Source of the DNA: Acidimicrobiales bacterium
Lineage (GTDB): Bacteria; Actinomycetota; Acidimicrobiia; Acidimicrobiales; MedAcidi-G1
Direction of reading: 5' to 3'
Assembly: GCA_022449565.1 (NCBI GenBank)
Contig: JAKUSA010000002.1
Coordinates: 1-50,241, forward strand
Length of the DNA stretch: 50,241 bases
The notes beneath the pieces are model-generated. The model made no database searches and was not told where the DNA came from. It saw nothing but the letters and a program-made list of their open reading frames with translations. This document shows, piece by piece, positions 40,534 through 49,990 of the stretch (the stretch's first letter is position 1; every line of letters begins with the position of its first letter). The translations under genes were made by a program, and so were the position numbers.

Positions 40534-41085
40534 TTAGCCGCTCGGGGCGTCGAGGCGGAATAAGCCGGTGGTGTCCAGGAGGGTGGCCACCAACCGGTGG
40601 GCTCGCCCGTGGGGGCCGAACACCGTGCAGTCGAAGACCTGCCCGGCCCGGGCGATCCGGGCCTCGGGTCGGCATGCCATTCGATTGCTGACCCCCAGGT
40701 CAGCATCGAGGCGCGCTACAGCCTGCTCAGCCACATCGGAGGCCCACACGACCGTGGCTGGGGAGGCCACCCGCACCCCTCCGAATGGATCGGGTCCCGT
40801 GACGGCGACTGACATCGGGTAGCCGGCGATGGTGACCGAACAGGAAACGGTGGCCAGCGTCGCGGCGGCCATGACCGGGCAGGAGACCTGCTCCACTAGC
40901 TGGGGAGCGGTCGGTAGTAGGGCCACAGGTATGGACCGCTCCAGGGCGGCCCCGTCGAGGAGTTCCGGCTCAGCAGACCCACAGGCCGCGCCGATCAAAA
41001 GGGCCAGGGCGACCAGCGCCCGGAGGGGGGCTCGGACTTCGGCGGTCAACCCAGTTCCCTGGCGTAGGCCAGTGCCTCCTCCCAT
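40534..41085 (-). CDS. Putative lipoprotein with two DUF4333-like domains
   Basis: Lipobox-like LLIGAACGSAEP; two modules with paired Cys (VSCPVMAAATLATVSCSVTIAGY; MACRPEARIARAGQVFDCTVFG). Confidence 0.7.
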   Translation of the reverse strand: MGGGTGLRQGTGLTAEVRAPLRALVALALLIGAACGSAEPELLDGAALERSIPVALLPTAPQLVEQVSCPVMAAATLATVSCSVTIAGYPMSVAVTGPDPFGGVRVASPATVVWASDVAEQAVARLDADLGVSNRMACRPEARIARAGQVFDCTVFGPHGRAHRLVATLLDTTGLFRLDAPSG

Positions 41086-42251
41086 GTGGCTTCCTGGTCG
41101 ATCAGCGACTTGAACTGCATCACCTGGCGTGGTCGGTTCATCCCGAACACGGCGTTGAACCGTCCTCCACTGCCGTAAAGGGCAGTGAACCGGCCCTCCT
41201 CAGGTGATCCGGTGACCATGCGGACCTCGTCGTCCGGGTGGGTCAGGCCAGCCACCTGGATCTTCCGGTCGTACTGATCGCTCCAGAACCATGGCACGGG
41301 GGCGTAGGCCGTGGCCTCCTCGTCGGTCTGTAGGAGCCGCCGGGCGGCATGGATGCCCTGTTCGACGGCGTTGTCCCAGTGTTCCACCCGAACGGACCTC
41401 CCGTAGCGCGGGTGGTCCCACCGAGCCACGTCGCCCGCCGCGGTGACGTCCGGCGCGGCCAGGCAGGTCGCGTCACAACAAACGCCGTCGTCGAGGTCGA
41501 GACCCGAGGACTCCAACCAGTCGGTGTTGGGGACCACGCCGATGCCCACCACGACCACGTCAGCCTCGACCACTGAACCGTCATCGAGCATGGCCGCCCT
41601 CACCCGGTCCTCGCCCACCAACTCGACCACGCCCACCCCGCAGCGAAGGTCAACTCCGTGGGAGCGGTGAAGGTCGGCCATGGTCGTTCCGATCTCGGCG
41701 CCAAGCACACGCACCAAGGGAACGGGGAGAGCTTCCACCATGGTGACCTCCACCCCGCGGTCGACCGCCACGGACGCCACCTCGGAGCCGATGAACCCGG
41801 CGCCCACCACGAGGAGCCGCCGGGGTACTCCCTCAAGGGCCGCCCGAATAGCCAGGCAATCGTCGAGGGTCCGAAGGGTGTGGACCCCCGCCAGATGCCC
41901 GGTGCCGGGCAAGGCCCGACATTGGGCCCCGGTGGCGATTAGCAGTCCGTCGAATCTCTCGGCCACCCCGTCCACCTCCACAGTGTGAGCCTCCAGGTCG
42001 AGGCCGGTGGCCCGCTGACCGAGGCGCAGGTCGACCTGAAGGTCGGCAAGCCGGTCCGGGGCTGCCAGGTGGATCCGATCGGGCTCCCAGTCGCCAGCCA
42101 GGACCTGTTTGGACAGAGGCGGTCGGTCGTAAGGCTGGTGGGACTCCTCGCCCACCAGGGTGATCCGACCGTCGAAGCCGTCCGAGCGGAGCGTCTCGAC
42201 GCCTCGGAGACCGGCCAGCGAGGCCCCGATGACGGTTATGGCCTCGCGCAT
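41046..42251 (-). CDS. FAD/NAD(P)-dependent ferredoxin reductase (rubredoxin/putidaredoxin reductase type)
   Basis: ITVIGASLAGLRGVETLRSDGFDGRITLVGEESHQPYDRPPLSKQVLAG; LLVVGAGFIGSEVASVAVDRGVEVTMVE. Confidence 0.93.
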   Translation of the reverse strand: MREAITVIGASLAGLRGVETLRSDGFDGRITLVGEESHQPYDRPPLSKQVLAGDWEPDRIHLAAPDRLADLQVDLRLGQRATGLDLEAHTVEVDGVAERFDGLLIATGAQCRALPGTGHLAGVHTLRTLDDCLAIRAALEGVPRRLLVVGAGFIGSEVASVAVDRGVEVTMVEALPVPLVRVLGAEIGTTMADLHRSHGVDLRCGVGVVELVGEDRVRAAMLDDGSVVEADVVVVGIGVVPNTDWLESSGLDLDDGVCCDATCLAAPDVTAAGDVARWDHPRYGRSVRVEHWDNAVEQGIHAARRLLQTDEEATAYAPVPWFWSDQYDRKIQVAGLTHPDDEVRMVTGSPEEGRFTALYGSGGRFNAVFGMNRPRQVMQFKSLIDQEATWEEALAYARELG

Positions 42252-42320
42252 CGACTCAGGTCCCCGACAGGAGCTTGTCCGACCCGGCCGGTGATCAGTC
42301 GCCCCGACGCGATCTCGGGG

Positions 42321-42512
42321 TCAGTCCTGGATGGAGATGGCCTGCTTGGGGCAACGCTGGACGGCCTCCTCCACGGCGGACCGTCGGTCCTCTCCGGGCT
42401 GCTCGTTGAGGACGTAGAGGAAGTCATCGTCGCGCACCTCAAAGATCTCCGGTGCGACCTGCATACAGATTGCGTTGCTCTCGCAGAGGTCGAAGTCCAC
42501 TACCACCCGCAT
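42321..42512 (-). CDS. Small 3Fe-4S-type ferredoxin
   Basis: MRVVVDFDLCESNAICMQVAPEIFEV...CPKQAISIQD; C-x5-C...CP pattern typical of P450-partner ferredoxins. Confidence 0.9.
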   Translation of the reverse strand: MRVVVDFDLCESNAICMQVAPEIFEVRDDDFLYVLNEQPGEDRRSAVEEAVQRCPKQAISIQD

Positions 42513-42603
42513 CGGATACACCTCTCCCAACCCCGGCCGTTCGACGACCGAACCAACGATCCCCCGATGGTAGGCAAGATCGGTGCAAGCCGCCGAATCC
42601 TCG

Positions 42604-43767
42604 TCAGGGCTTCTGGTCACCGACCACCCACATGGCGAAGTACTGGGCCCCACCGCCGTAGGCGTGGCCGAAGGCCCGTCGGACTCCGTCTACCTGATGG
42701 TCCCCGGCCATCCCACGAACCTGGAGCGCAGCCTCGGCGAAGCGAATCATGCCGGAGGCCCCAATCGGGTTGGAGGACAGCACCCCACCGGAGCAGTTGA
42801 CCGGCAGGTCGCCTCCCTCGATGTCGGTGGACCCGTCCTCGACCATGCGCCACCCGTGATCCACCTCGGCGAACCCGAGGCTCTCCAGCCACATCGGTTC
42901 GTACCAGGAGAACGGCACGTACATCTCGACCACGTCGATTTCGGCGCGGGGGTCGACGATGCCGGCCTGGCCGAAGACGTCAGCCGCGCACTCCCGGCTT
43001 GCCAAAGGGTTCACCTCGTCGCGTCCGGGAAAGTTGTTGGCCTCGGAGCGCATGGCCGTGCCGTGCACCCAGGCCACCGGGCTGTCAGAGGCGTCCCCGG
43101 CGGCCTCGTCGCCGAGCACCATGGCGCACGCCCCGTCAGAAGAGGGGCAGGTCTCCGAGTAGCGGATCGGGTCCCACAGCATCGGTGATTCGACGACGGC
43201 TTCGAAGGTCAGGTCGGCCTGGTGCAGGTGGGCAAAGGGGTTAGCCAGGGCGTGGCGTCGGTCCTTGAAAGCAACCATGCAGCCGATCAGGTCCGGGGCG
43301 CCCGAGCGGGCCATGTACTGGCGGATTATCGGTGAGAAATAGCCACCGGCCCCGGCGTTGATGGACACCGAGAACGGTTGGGGAAGGGAGAGGGCCCAGG
43401 TGGCATTGGACTCGGACTGCTTCTCAAAGCCCAGGGTGAGCACCCGCCGGTGGACCCGCGACTGGACTAGCGATGCGGCAACCAACGCTGTGGAACCGCC
43501 CACCGACCCAGCGGTGTGGACCCGCAGCATCGGTTTACCCACACATCCCAGGGCGTCGGCCAGGTACAGCTCCGGCATGACCACCCCCTCGAAGAAGTCG
43601 GGGGCTTTGCCGATGACCACTGCGTCGATCTCCGCCCATCCAAGGCGGGCGTCCTCAAGGGCCCGGTAAGCGGCCTCGCGTACCAGTCCGGCGATGGACA
43701 CGTCGCCCCGGTTGGACGAGTACCTGGTCTGGCCGACTCCCAAAACGGCGGTGCGCTCACCTCCCAT
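42604..43767 (-). CDS. Thiolase-fold protein (lipid-transfer protein/SCP2-thiolase family, Ltp-like)
   Basis: MGGERTAVLGVGQTRYSSNRGDVSIAGLVREAAYRALEDARLGWAEIDAVV; NPIGASGMIRFAEAALQVRG; HAYGGGAQYFAMWVV. Confidence 0.88.
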   Translation of the reverse strand: MGGERTAVLGVGQTRYSSNRGDVSIAGLVREAAYRALEDARLGWAEIDAVVIGKAPDFFEGVVMPELYLADALGCVGKPMLRVHTAGSVGGSTALVAASLVQSRVHRRVLTLGFEKQSESNATWALSLPQPFSVSINAGAGGYFSPIIRQYMARSGAPDLIGCMVAFKDRRHALANPFAHLHQADLTFEAVVESPMLWDPIRYSETCPSSDGACAMVLGDEAAGDASDSPVAWVHGTAMRSEANNFPGRDEVNPLASRECAADVFGQAGIVDPRAEIDVVEMYVPFSWYEPMWLESLGFAEVDHGWRMVEDGSTDIEGGDLPVNCSGGVLSSNPIGASGMIRFAEAALQVRGMAGDHQVDGVRRAFGHAYGGGAQYFAMWVVGDQKP

Positions 43768-46992: not shown

Positions 46993-47155
46993 CGTCGGCT
47001 CCGATCGGAGGGTTTGTTCCTCTGCGCGGCGACCCTAACGGACCGGCTGAGGTCGCGGGAAGGCGACCGGCATCCCAGATCGTGCCAACATGGCCGACCC
47101 CGGTCACCGCAGATCGGGACTCGGGCCCGCTCATCCCCGGCCACCGGAGCGCGAC

Positions 47156-48184
47156 ATGCAGATCGACATCGGGCTCACCACCGCCCTCCGGCTCGTCCCC
47201 GACCGGGCCCGAGAGCTCCGGGAGGCGGGGTTCGACGGCGTGTTCACCGCCGAGGCTGCCCAGGACGTCTTTGCCCCCCTTGTGCTGGCCGCCGAACACA
47301 GCGACCTCTTCTGCTACACGAACATCGCACTGGCCCTGCCCCGCAGTCCCATGCTCCTTGCTTCCACCGGCTGGGACCTGCAGCGCTACACGGAGGGCCG
47401 GATGGCCCTAGGCCTGGGTAGCCAAATCCGACCGCACATCACGAAACGCTATTCGGCCCTCTGGGACCGGCCGGTCGCCCAGATGCGGGAGGTGGTCGAG
47501 TCGATCAGGGCCATCCACGCCTGCTGGTCCGACGGAACGCCCCTTGACTACCGGGGCGAGTTTTACACCTTCACCCTGATGACGCCGATGTTCGTGCCGG
47601 AGGCGAACCCGTGGGGTGCCCCGCCGATCTGGCTGGCCGCCCTTGGCCCGATGATGACCCGGCTGGCCGGTACGGTCGCCGACGGGATACTCGTTCACCC
47701 GTTCAGTACCCGAAGGTTCCTCGACCAGGTCACCCGGCCCAACCTGGCCGAGGGGATCCGGCGGGCTGGGCGCTCCGACGACGACGTGAACCTGGTCGTC
47801 AACGCCATCGTCTGCGCCTACCGGGACGACGCTGAGCGCGAGCAGGCGATTCGGGGGGCCCGCTTCAACCTGGCCTTCTACGGTTCGACCCCCGCCTACC
47901 GGGTCACCCTGGAGGCCCACGGATGGGAGGACCTCCAACCCCAGTTGAACCAGCTCACCAAGGAAGGCCGATGGGACGATATGCCTTCAGTGATCACCGA
48001 CGAGGTGCTGCACACCATCGCGGTGGTCGGCAGCCCGGCCGAGGTGGGTGACCAGTTGGTGGACCGGTACGGCGACGTGGCCGACCGTCTGGGACTGTCC
48101 GTGCCCTACGCGGCGCCCACCGATCTGTTGGCCGAAGTGGTTGAGGGAATCCGCCGAGCCTCGGAGGGCGGCCAGGACGGCTAA
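47156..48184 (+). CDS. LLM class F420-dependent oxidoreductase
   Basis: MQIDIGLTTALRLVPDRARELREAGFDGVFTAEAAQDVFAPLVLAAEHS; RMALGLGSQIRPHITKRYSALWDRP. Confidence 0.88.
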   Translation: MQIDIGLTTALRLVPDRARELREAGFDGVFTAEAAQDVFAPLVLAAEHSDLFCYTNIALALPRSPMLLASTGWDLQRYTEGRMALGLGSQIRPHITKRYSALWDRPVAQMREVVESIRAIHACWSDGTPLDYRGEFYTFTLMTPMFVPEANPWGAPPIWLAALGPMMTRLAGTVADGILVHPFSTRRFLDQVTRPNLAEGIRRAGRSDDDVNLVVNAIVCAYRDDAEREQAIRGARFNLAFYGSTPAYRVTLEAHGWEDLQPQLNQLTKEGRWDDMPSVITDEVLHTIAVVGSPAEVGDQLVDRYGDVADRLGLSVPYAAPTDLLAEVVEGIRRASEGGQDG

Positions 48185-48570
48185 CCGCCCGGGCGGCCGA
48201 GGAATTCCCGGATCCTCTCCCGGGGTCGGCCGACGCAGGCAGCGAGCGGGCCGTCACCATCCAGGTCACCCTTGATCAGCACCGGTCGCTGGAGGAGCGC
48301 CTTGCGAGCGGCCAGTAGGGCGACCACCGAGTCAGGGGCGTCCACGTAGTCCTCAGGTTTAAGTTCCAACTTTTTGAACTGCGAGTCCTTGCGCACCAGG
48401 TCCTCCACCGGACCTTCTAGCCCGGCAGTGATCCGTCGCAGCAGGGCCTCGTCAGGGGGCTCCTTCATGTAGAGCACCACTTCCACCTCAACCCCCATCT
48501 CCTCGGCGACCGCCAAGGCTGTCTGGGAGGAGTTTCAATGCGGATTGTGAAGGATGGTGATCTCGGCCAT
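48181..48570 (-). CDS. ArsC/Spx-family arsenate reductase-like protein, candidate selenoprotein with in-frame TGA (Sec) at residue 12
   Basis: Minus: MAEITILHNPH-[TGA]-NSSQTALAVAEEMGVEVEVVLYMKEPPDEALLRRITAGLEGPVEDLVRKDSQFKKLEL...LLQRPVLIKGD...VGRPRERIREFL; TGA (48537-48535) sits on the HNPxC catalytic Cys; AGGAG RBS before ATG. Confidence 0.85.
48499..48532 (-). promoter_or_regulatory. Candidate bacterial SECIS hairpin 3' of the UGA
   Basis: Minus CUCCUC-CCA-GAC-A-GC(CUUG)GC-G-GUC-GCC-GAGGAG: 6-bp lower stem, GAC/GUC and GC/GC upper pairs; apex about 18-21 nt after UGA. Confidence 0.6.
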
Positions 48571-48727
48571 CGGCTGGCTCCTGTCCGGTCGGGTTGGTGG
48601 GCGGTCGCCCAGTCTGGGGATCTGTGCCCGACGGGGCCCGGGAGTGGGTCACCTCCCCGTCGGTCCGGCCTGCCGGCCGGGCGTAGTCAACCACGGCACT
48701 GGGGCTCCCGCTGGCGCCCTACCCCGT

Positions 48728-49564
48728 TTAGAAGCCGCGCCAAACCGGGTCGCGGCGCTCCAAGAACGCCGCAACCCCTTCGGCTGCATCGAGGGTCGAA
48801 CTGTTGGCCTCAACGGCCCACGCCTCCAACTCAGCCAGGGTGTTCCGGTCCACGTCAAGGGAGCGGTTGAAAAGAGCCTTGGTCAGCATGAGGCTCCGGG
48901 TCGGTCCCGAGGCGAGTCTCCCCGCCCACTCGGCCGCCGCCCCCTCGAGTGAGTCGCCGTCGACCACCCGGCCGCAGAGGCCTATCCGAAGGGCCTCGTC
49001 GGCCGGGATGTCCTCAGCAAAGAAGGCCAGTTCCTTGGCCTTTTGCAGGCCGACCAGTCGGGGCAAGATCCACGCCCCCAGCCCGTCGGGAACCAGCCCC
49101 CGACGGGCGAACACCTCGATGAACCGGGCATGGTCTGCCATAACGACTAGATCGCAACACAGGGCTAGGTGGGCGCCCACTCCGGCCGCGGTGCCGTTGA
49201 CCGCAGCCACCACGGGAAGTTCGCAGTCCAGCACCGCCGACATCAACCGGATCTGGCCGTCGAGCATTGTCCGACGGACTTCGCCTGTCGCGGATCGAGG
49301 GGCTCCGTCGGGACGGGGGGCGGGCGGGCGAAGCGCACTCAGGTCTGCGCCCGTACAGAAACTCCTCGTACCGGTAGCGGTGACCACTGCGGCGCGAGCG
49401 TCGAACTGGCCGTTGAGGCTCCCGAACACCTCGGCAAGACGGTCACGCATACCGGGCGTTAAAGCGTTGCCGCGTTCAGGGTTGTCGATGGTGACCCAGG
49501 CCACCTGGTCCCGGATCTCCAGCCGCACCCGGTCCTCGAGATCCAACTCGGAGGTGCCCGTCAT
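48728..49564 (-). CDS. Enoyl-CoA hydratase/isomerase family protein
   Basis: VAWVTIDNPERGNALTPGMRDRLAEVF; AAVVTATGTRSFCTGADLSAL; AAVNGTAAGVGAHLALCCDLVVMADHARFIEVFARRGLVPDGLGAWILPRLVG. Confidence 0.93.
   Translation of the reverse strand: MTGTSELDLEDRVRLEIRDQVAWVTIDNPERGNALTPGMRDRLAEVFGSLNGQFDARAAVVTATGTRSFCTGADLSALRPPAPRPDGAPRSATGEVRRTMLDGQIRLMSAVLDCELPVVAAVNGTAAGVGAHLALCCDLVVMADHARFIEVFARRGLVPDGLGAWILPRLVGLQKAKELAFFAEDIPADEALRIGLCGRVVDGDSLEGAAAEWAGRLASGPTRSLMLTKALFNRSLDVDRNTLAELEAWAVEANSSTLDAAEGVAAFLERRDPVWRGF

Positions 49565-49615: not shown

Positions 49616-49990
<375 letters not shown>

Follow-up and report, generated by a model that had tools for sequence, protein, structure and literature searches.

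The locus studied here raises the question of whether an in-frame TGA at the catalytic position of an arsC-like gene ends translation or is read as selenocysteine (Sec), and, if it is read, what the product is likely to do. The window, meaning the whole 50,241-nucleotide stretch of DNA that was analysed, comes from a fragmented metagenome-assembled genome (MAG; 74.6% complete, 3.7% contamination) of an uncultured actinobacterium, marine judging from its relatives. We consider it almost certain that the UGA at codon 12 is read as Sec, and very probable that this is a functional selenoprotein gene in which SelB and a SECIS element guide Sec into an ArsC-type reductase. The computed basis consists of the reading frame, the U/C exchange at codon 12, a covarying hairpin, the presence of the Sec machinery in the same genomes, and the fold and key residues of ArsC; of these, the exchange, the machinery and the hairpin bear out the selenoprotein interpretation proposed by a first-pass annotation of the same DNA.

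The reading frame and codon 12

The frame opens with ATG and closes with TAG, and the TGA at codon 12 is its sole internal stop. This agrees with the first-pass annotation, which had the start at 48570, the TGA at 48537-48535, 129 otherwise intact codons and an AGGAG upstream. The features of the locus and of its flanks are as follows.

48570..48181, minus strand: arsC-like gene, predicted to encode a selenoprotein; 129 codons including U12, then TAG; product begins MAEITILHNPHU; match to PF03960
48537..48535, minus strand: in-frame UGA, predicted Sec codon 12, opposite the catalytic Cys12 of R773 ArsC
48582..48578, minus strand: AGGAG, likely ribosome-binding site, 7 nt 5' of the ATG by direct reading
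48518..48501, minus strand: predicted SECIS hairpin CCUUGGC-GGUC-GCCGAGG, 7 bp, loop GGUC at 48508-48511, 23 nt past the UGA
48728..49564, minus strand: enoyl-CoA hydratase gene, directly upstream of the arsC-like gene; homologs nearby in 33 of 83 loci compared
49616..49954, minus strand: P-II nitrogen regulatory protein gene; homologs nearby in 48 of 83 loci compared
47090..48184, plus strand: luciferase-like (LLM) monooxygenase gene, convergent, with a 4-nt overlap with the arsC stop; nearby in only 8 of 83 loci

Codon 12 was compared across a sample of 149 genomes of the window's order (Acidimicrobiales, judging from named relatives), 87 of which have an ArsC relative. In the 77 distinct homologs examined it is TGA in 45, TGC or TGT in 32, and no other codon occurs. 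A search of GTDB species genomes was also made, from which the best 80 loci, from named genome records, were kept as close relatives, and all 80 have TGA at this codon, a recurrence that, judged from the sequences, lies far beyond chance. These best loci are nearly all MAGs (the one record without a MAG mark is AG-414-N20) and are recorded as Acidimicrobiales, Acidimicrobiaceae, Acidimicrobiia, Candidatus Microthrix or under other actinobacterial names. A base-calling error is excluded because the TGA recurs in 80 independent genome records, so the codon is no misread TGC or TGT. The earlier claim that the TGA falls on the catalytic Cys of the ArsC HNPxC motif held, as did the expectation, set as a check, that homologs have C or U at this residue: the PDB sequence matches put U12 opposite the catalytic Cys, and only the two kinds of codon were found among the homologs examined.

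A tree built from the 77 homologs on 117 columns leaves many forks unresolved; on it the Sec/Cys label changes 5 times versus about 25 in shuffles, and so few changes fit a trait inherited mainly within the order. One genome listed only as of the same phylum (G394) also has the TGA form.

Many genomes of the source family also have another TGA-containing ArsC (HNPGUGKSRGAL), divergent from the first copy and encoded on the opposite strand. It is seen on the plus strand at loci L050, L051 (7210-7554) and L052. Its distance upstream of the first copy is about 2-8 kb in G129, G055 and G097, and many other genomes have it at about 6 kb. The source MAG, where the arsC contig ends 1.7 kb upstream, yielded no such copy.

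A hairpin downstream of the UGA

A search for a SECIS element after the UGA returned the covarying hairpin at 48518-48501. The bacterial SECIS model that was used (PMC13188914) has an apical loop of 3-9 nt, an upper stem of 4-16 bp, a spacing of 16-37 nt, a G in the first two loop positions and an MFE <= -7.5. The hairpin agrees with this model in every respect (4-nt loop GGUC, 7 bp, 23 nt between the UGA and the apical loop, -10.7 kcal/mol), and the conserved 18 nt by themselves give a z of -3.4 at this free energy. As many as 41 places within the window fit the same published criteria, which are thus unspecific alone, and the hairpin counts only through its covariation.

That covariation is considerable. 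The GGUC loop never varies among 102 distinct sequences, and standard pairs fill 712 of 714 pair cells, with pair 24-33 appearing as G-C, A-U or G-U, pair 22-35 as U-A, G-C, C-G or U-G with one mismatch, and pair 21-36 as C-G, U-A or U-G. The covariation score (30 distinct sequences) is 0.338 against 0.172 when shuffled, none of 500 shuffles reaching as high, while slid pairings in the same sequences give at most 0.154. In four loci (L044, L045, L070 and L071) both arms of the stem are altered jointly at the cost of a protein change from ALAVAE to AVAVAT; some hairpin changes alter the protein to keep the pairing. Third-position entropy in the GGUC group is 0.24-0.87 bit over the hairpin codons versus mostly 1.4-1.9 bit elsewhere. 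The E. coli fdhF SECIS likewise has a GGUC loop.

Longer folds, reaching 40-50 nt past the UGA, were also tried and set aside: they gave two differing long structures with unimpressive z values (-1.7 and -1.8), and the 18-nt hairpin is the meaningful unit. Seven loci (L039, L042, L043, L048, L072, L073 and L075) belong to another Sec-ArsC group with a differently placed candidate hairpin closer to the UGA, with a GCAAUGC or AAUGC stem and a CGUGC loop. Such differently placed hairpins suggest that the SECIS may have been remodelled within one protein family.

The selenocysteine machinery

All of the genes looked for (selA, selB, tRNA-Sec and selD) are present in the source MAG. At 65.9 bits the tRNA-Sec clears its cut-off of 47, and ARAGORN agrees, with anticodon TCA; selA and selB adjoin each other, and the sel genes are on contigs other than the arsC contig. 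The selD gene (L019, G000:C147:5390-6307) has an in-frame TGA at the position of its own catalytic Cys (SHGAGUGCK) and is therefore itself a selenoprotein gene.

Across genomes, selA is found in 41 of 41 with TGA-ArsC versus 93 of 149 in the order sample (Fisher p 9e-11, phylogeny ignored). The genome G103 has a Cys copy that groups with Sec copies in the tree and gave no selA match, as would be expected after loss of the Sec trait, and a replacement of Sec by Cys is likely there.

Protein family, active site and predicted fold

The protein matches Pfam ArsC (PF03960) at 36.2 bits against a gathering score of 24 (E 7.5e-9). With C substituted for U, the NCBIfam equivalog TIGR00014 comes out at the top of the library with 70.6 bits, under its cut-off of 106.05. 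Spx/MgsR (TIGR01617) gives 35.8 bits, under its cut-off of 75.05, and the CxxC switch of that family is absent from the protein, where the motif is U-N-S-S. By sequence, arsenate reductases are the best matches in the PDB. AlphaFold2 gives a confident model (pLDDT 90.2), and the eight best structural matches to it in the PDB are all arsenate reductases (3rdw at E 9e-8, 1jzw at TM 0.76), with Spx next, so the predicted structure has the ArsC fold.

The anion-binding arginines of R773 ArsC are R60, R94 and R107, with the nucleophile at residue 12. In a 14-sequence alignment, in which one sequence has Cys for Sec, H8, N9, U12, R60, R95 (QRP) and R115 (GRP) are invariant, and U12 and the three arginines match the nucleophile and anion-binding arginines of R773. 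The first-pass annotation had already named these arginines; R60 is exact and the other two are R95 and R115. In the window's family about 7-8 residues are inserted ahead of the GRP motif, within residues 101-114 (48229-48268, minus strand).

No further cysteine lies within the stretch examined in 56 of the 80 best loci, and because of this we infer reduction by an outside thiol. A cysteine at the C112 position was considered as a general resolving thiol and rejected, being present in only 22 of the 80 best loci. Matches to mycoredoxin-like candidate electron donors were found in 24 of 49 family genomes, all under cut-off, and none in the source MAG.

The mechanism we propose is then as follows. 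SelB, directed by the SECIS hairpin 3' of the UGA, would bring Sec-tRNA(Sec) to codon 12. The product would be a 129-residue ArsC-type reductase with a glutaredoxin fold and a UxxS motif, in which a selenolate is the nucleophile. This selenolate may attack arsenate, a similar oxyanion or an oxidised thiol held by R60, R95 and R115, and an external thiol would probably resolve the seleno-adduct, as in glutaredoxin-coupled ArsC.

Gene neighbourhood and possible substrates

The genes beside arsC had been described as fatty-acid and F420 genes, and this can be corrected to enoyl-CoA hydratase, P-II protein, luciferase-like monooxygenase and zinc alcohol dehydrogenase. OB-fold and thiolase-type genes complete the scanned neighbours, among which no ars genes were recognised. 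Neither Acr3 nor ArsB was found in the 49 family genomes (0/49 for each). The exporter search covered these two, and arsenate reduction without Acr3 or ArsB is possible through other exporters. The lack of Acr3, ArsB and neighbouring ars genes weakens the arsenate part of the interpretation and leaves the Sec reading unaffected. An arsenate reductase function is plausible, and we lean modestly towards arsenate as the physiological substrate, our confidence being limited because of these same absences.

A strong competing view, which we think quite possible though not the one we favour, is that the gene does encode a selenoprotein, but one that serves as a thiol-oxidoreductase of the ArsC/YffB group, with other oxyanions or mixed disulfides, for instance, as substrates, and has no part in arsenate detoxification. 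Such a role would fit the missing Acr3 and ArsB, the nearest conserved neighbours (P-II, enoyl-CoA hydratase and alcohol dehydrogenase genes), the TIGR00014 score under its cut-off, and the second divergent TGA copy in many family genomes, which suggests split roles. It fits less well with the invariance of all three anion-binding arginines and with the arsenate reductases at the top of the structural matches, and the scope of the exporter search also tells against it. More tentatively still, Acidimicrobiales may retain Sec-ArsC, often with a second Sec copy in the source family, for a non-arsenic redox task that relies on an external thiol, the protein itself lacking a resolving cysteine; the substrate may be a different oxyanion or mixed disulfides on proteins.

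Elsewhere in the window, at 41046-42653, two conserved frames are seemingly joined by a TGA. In one relative (L112) the frames differ, and given this the TGA probably serves as a normal stop that separates the two genes.

Other readings of the TGA

Whichever substrate applies, reading the TGA as Sec has to be weighed against simpler explanations. Standard-code ORF calling places the start at TTG 48516, 3' of the TGA, which cuts the protein short at the active site. Were this the true start, as the output of the mechanical caller has it, the upstream TGA would end an unrelated short frame. We regard this as very unlikely. The ten codons 5' of the TGA (codons 2-11) have mean non-consensus values of 0.16, 0.09 and 0.42 at codon positions 1, 2 and 3, the coding type of variation concentrated at third positions, and they encode the conserved HNP motif; moreover, the Cys homologs are continuous through codon 12 and the ribosome-binding site sits before the ATG. 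The TTG start is an artefact, as the first-pass annotation had it. A sequencing error or a decaying pseudogene might be suspected from one stop codon on a single MAG contig, but with the same TGA in all 80 independent records, an ArsC relative in 46 of the 49 family genomes, no second stop in frame and strong constraint, its probability is negligible. The in-frame TGA could also mean that the organism decodes UGA in general, by reassignment or by readthrough, with Trp or Gly as possible residues. This is extremely improbable, since the window's long open frames end in TGA more often than in any other stop and Cys is aligned at codon 12 in all non-TGA homologs examined.

Comparison with known systems

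Taking the UGA as Sec, the protein belongs to a kind already known since 2005, and what is added here is its genomic home in Acidimicrobiales. The first-pass remark that ArsC-like Sec proteins occur in marine metagenomes is correct: the Sargasso Sea selenoproteome of 2005 has a Sec arsenate reductase family of 14 sequences (COG1393, motif UXXS; PMC1088965), the GOS selenoproteome of 2008 has ArsC 1 with 77 sequences (pfam03960, UxxS; PMC2398784), and a 2026 review enters Sec-ArsC as TIGR00014 UxxS (PMC13188914). A selenoprotein family from ocean metagenome reads can now be tied to a defined uncultured order as a maintained trait. The further remark that an actinobacterial copy is little described fits our literature searches, in which the titles and abstracts of open-access papers showed nothing evident on Sec or selenoproteins in Acidimicrobiia or marine actinobacteria; however, the gene is lineage-wide and no isolated oddity. 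The natural U/C pairs, together with the likely replacement in G103, make the gain from Sec over Cys in ArsC directly testable.

The Sargasso and GOS proteins, likened here by description, share with ours the Sec at the ArsC catalytic Cys, the UxxS motif, a SECIS just downstream and a marine source. They differ in being metagenome reads without an assigned organism, whereas here the gene is found lineage-wide in Acidimicrobiales genomes with Sec machinery. The E. coli R773 plasmid ArsC (PDB 1i9d, 1jzw) is alike in its Grx-like fold, residue-12 nucleophile, R60 and two further arginines; the present protein has Sec for Cys12 and about 25% identity, and its gene lies in a neighbourhood where no ars genes were recognised. 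Spx and YffB (PDB 1z3e, 1rw1) have the fold family PF03960 in common with it, but the motif here is UxxS and not CxxC, and the structural and HMM matches to them are weaker. The GOS arsenate reductase 2 (cd03032) is likewise an ArsC-related selenoprotein, with UxxC where the protein described here has UxxS.
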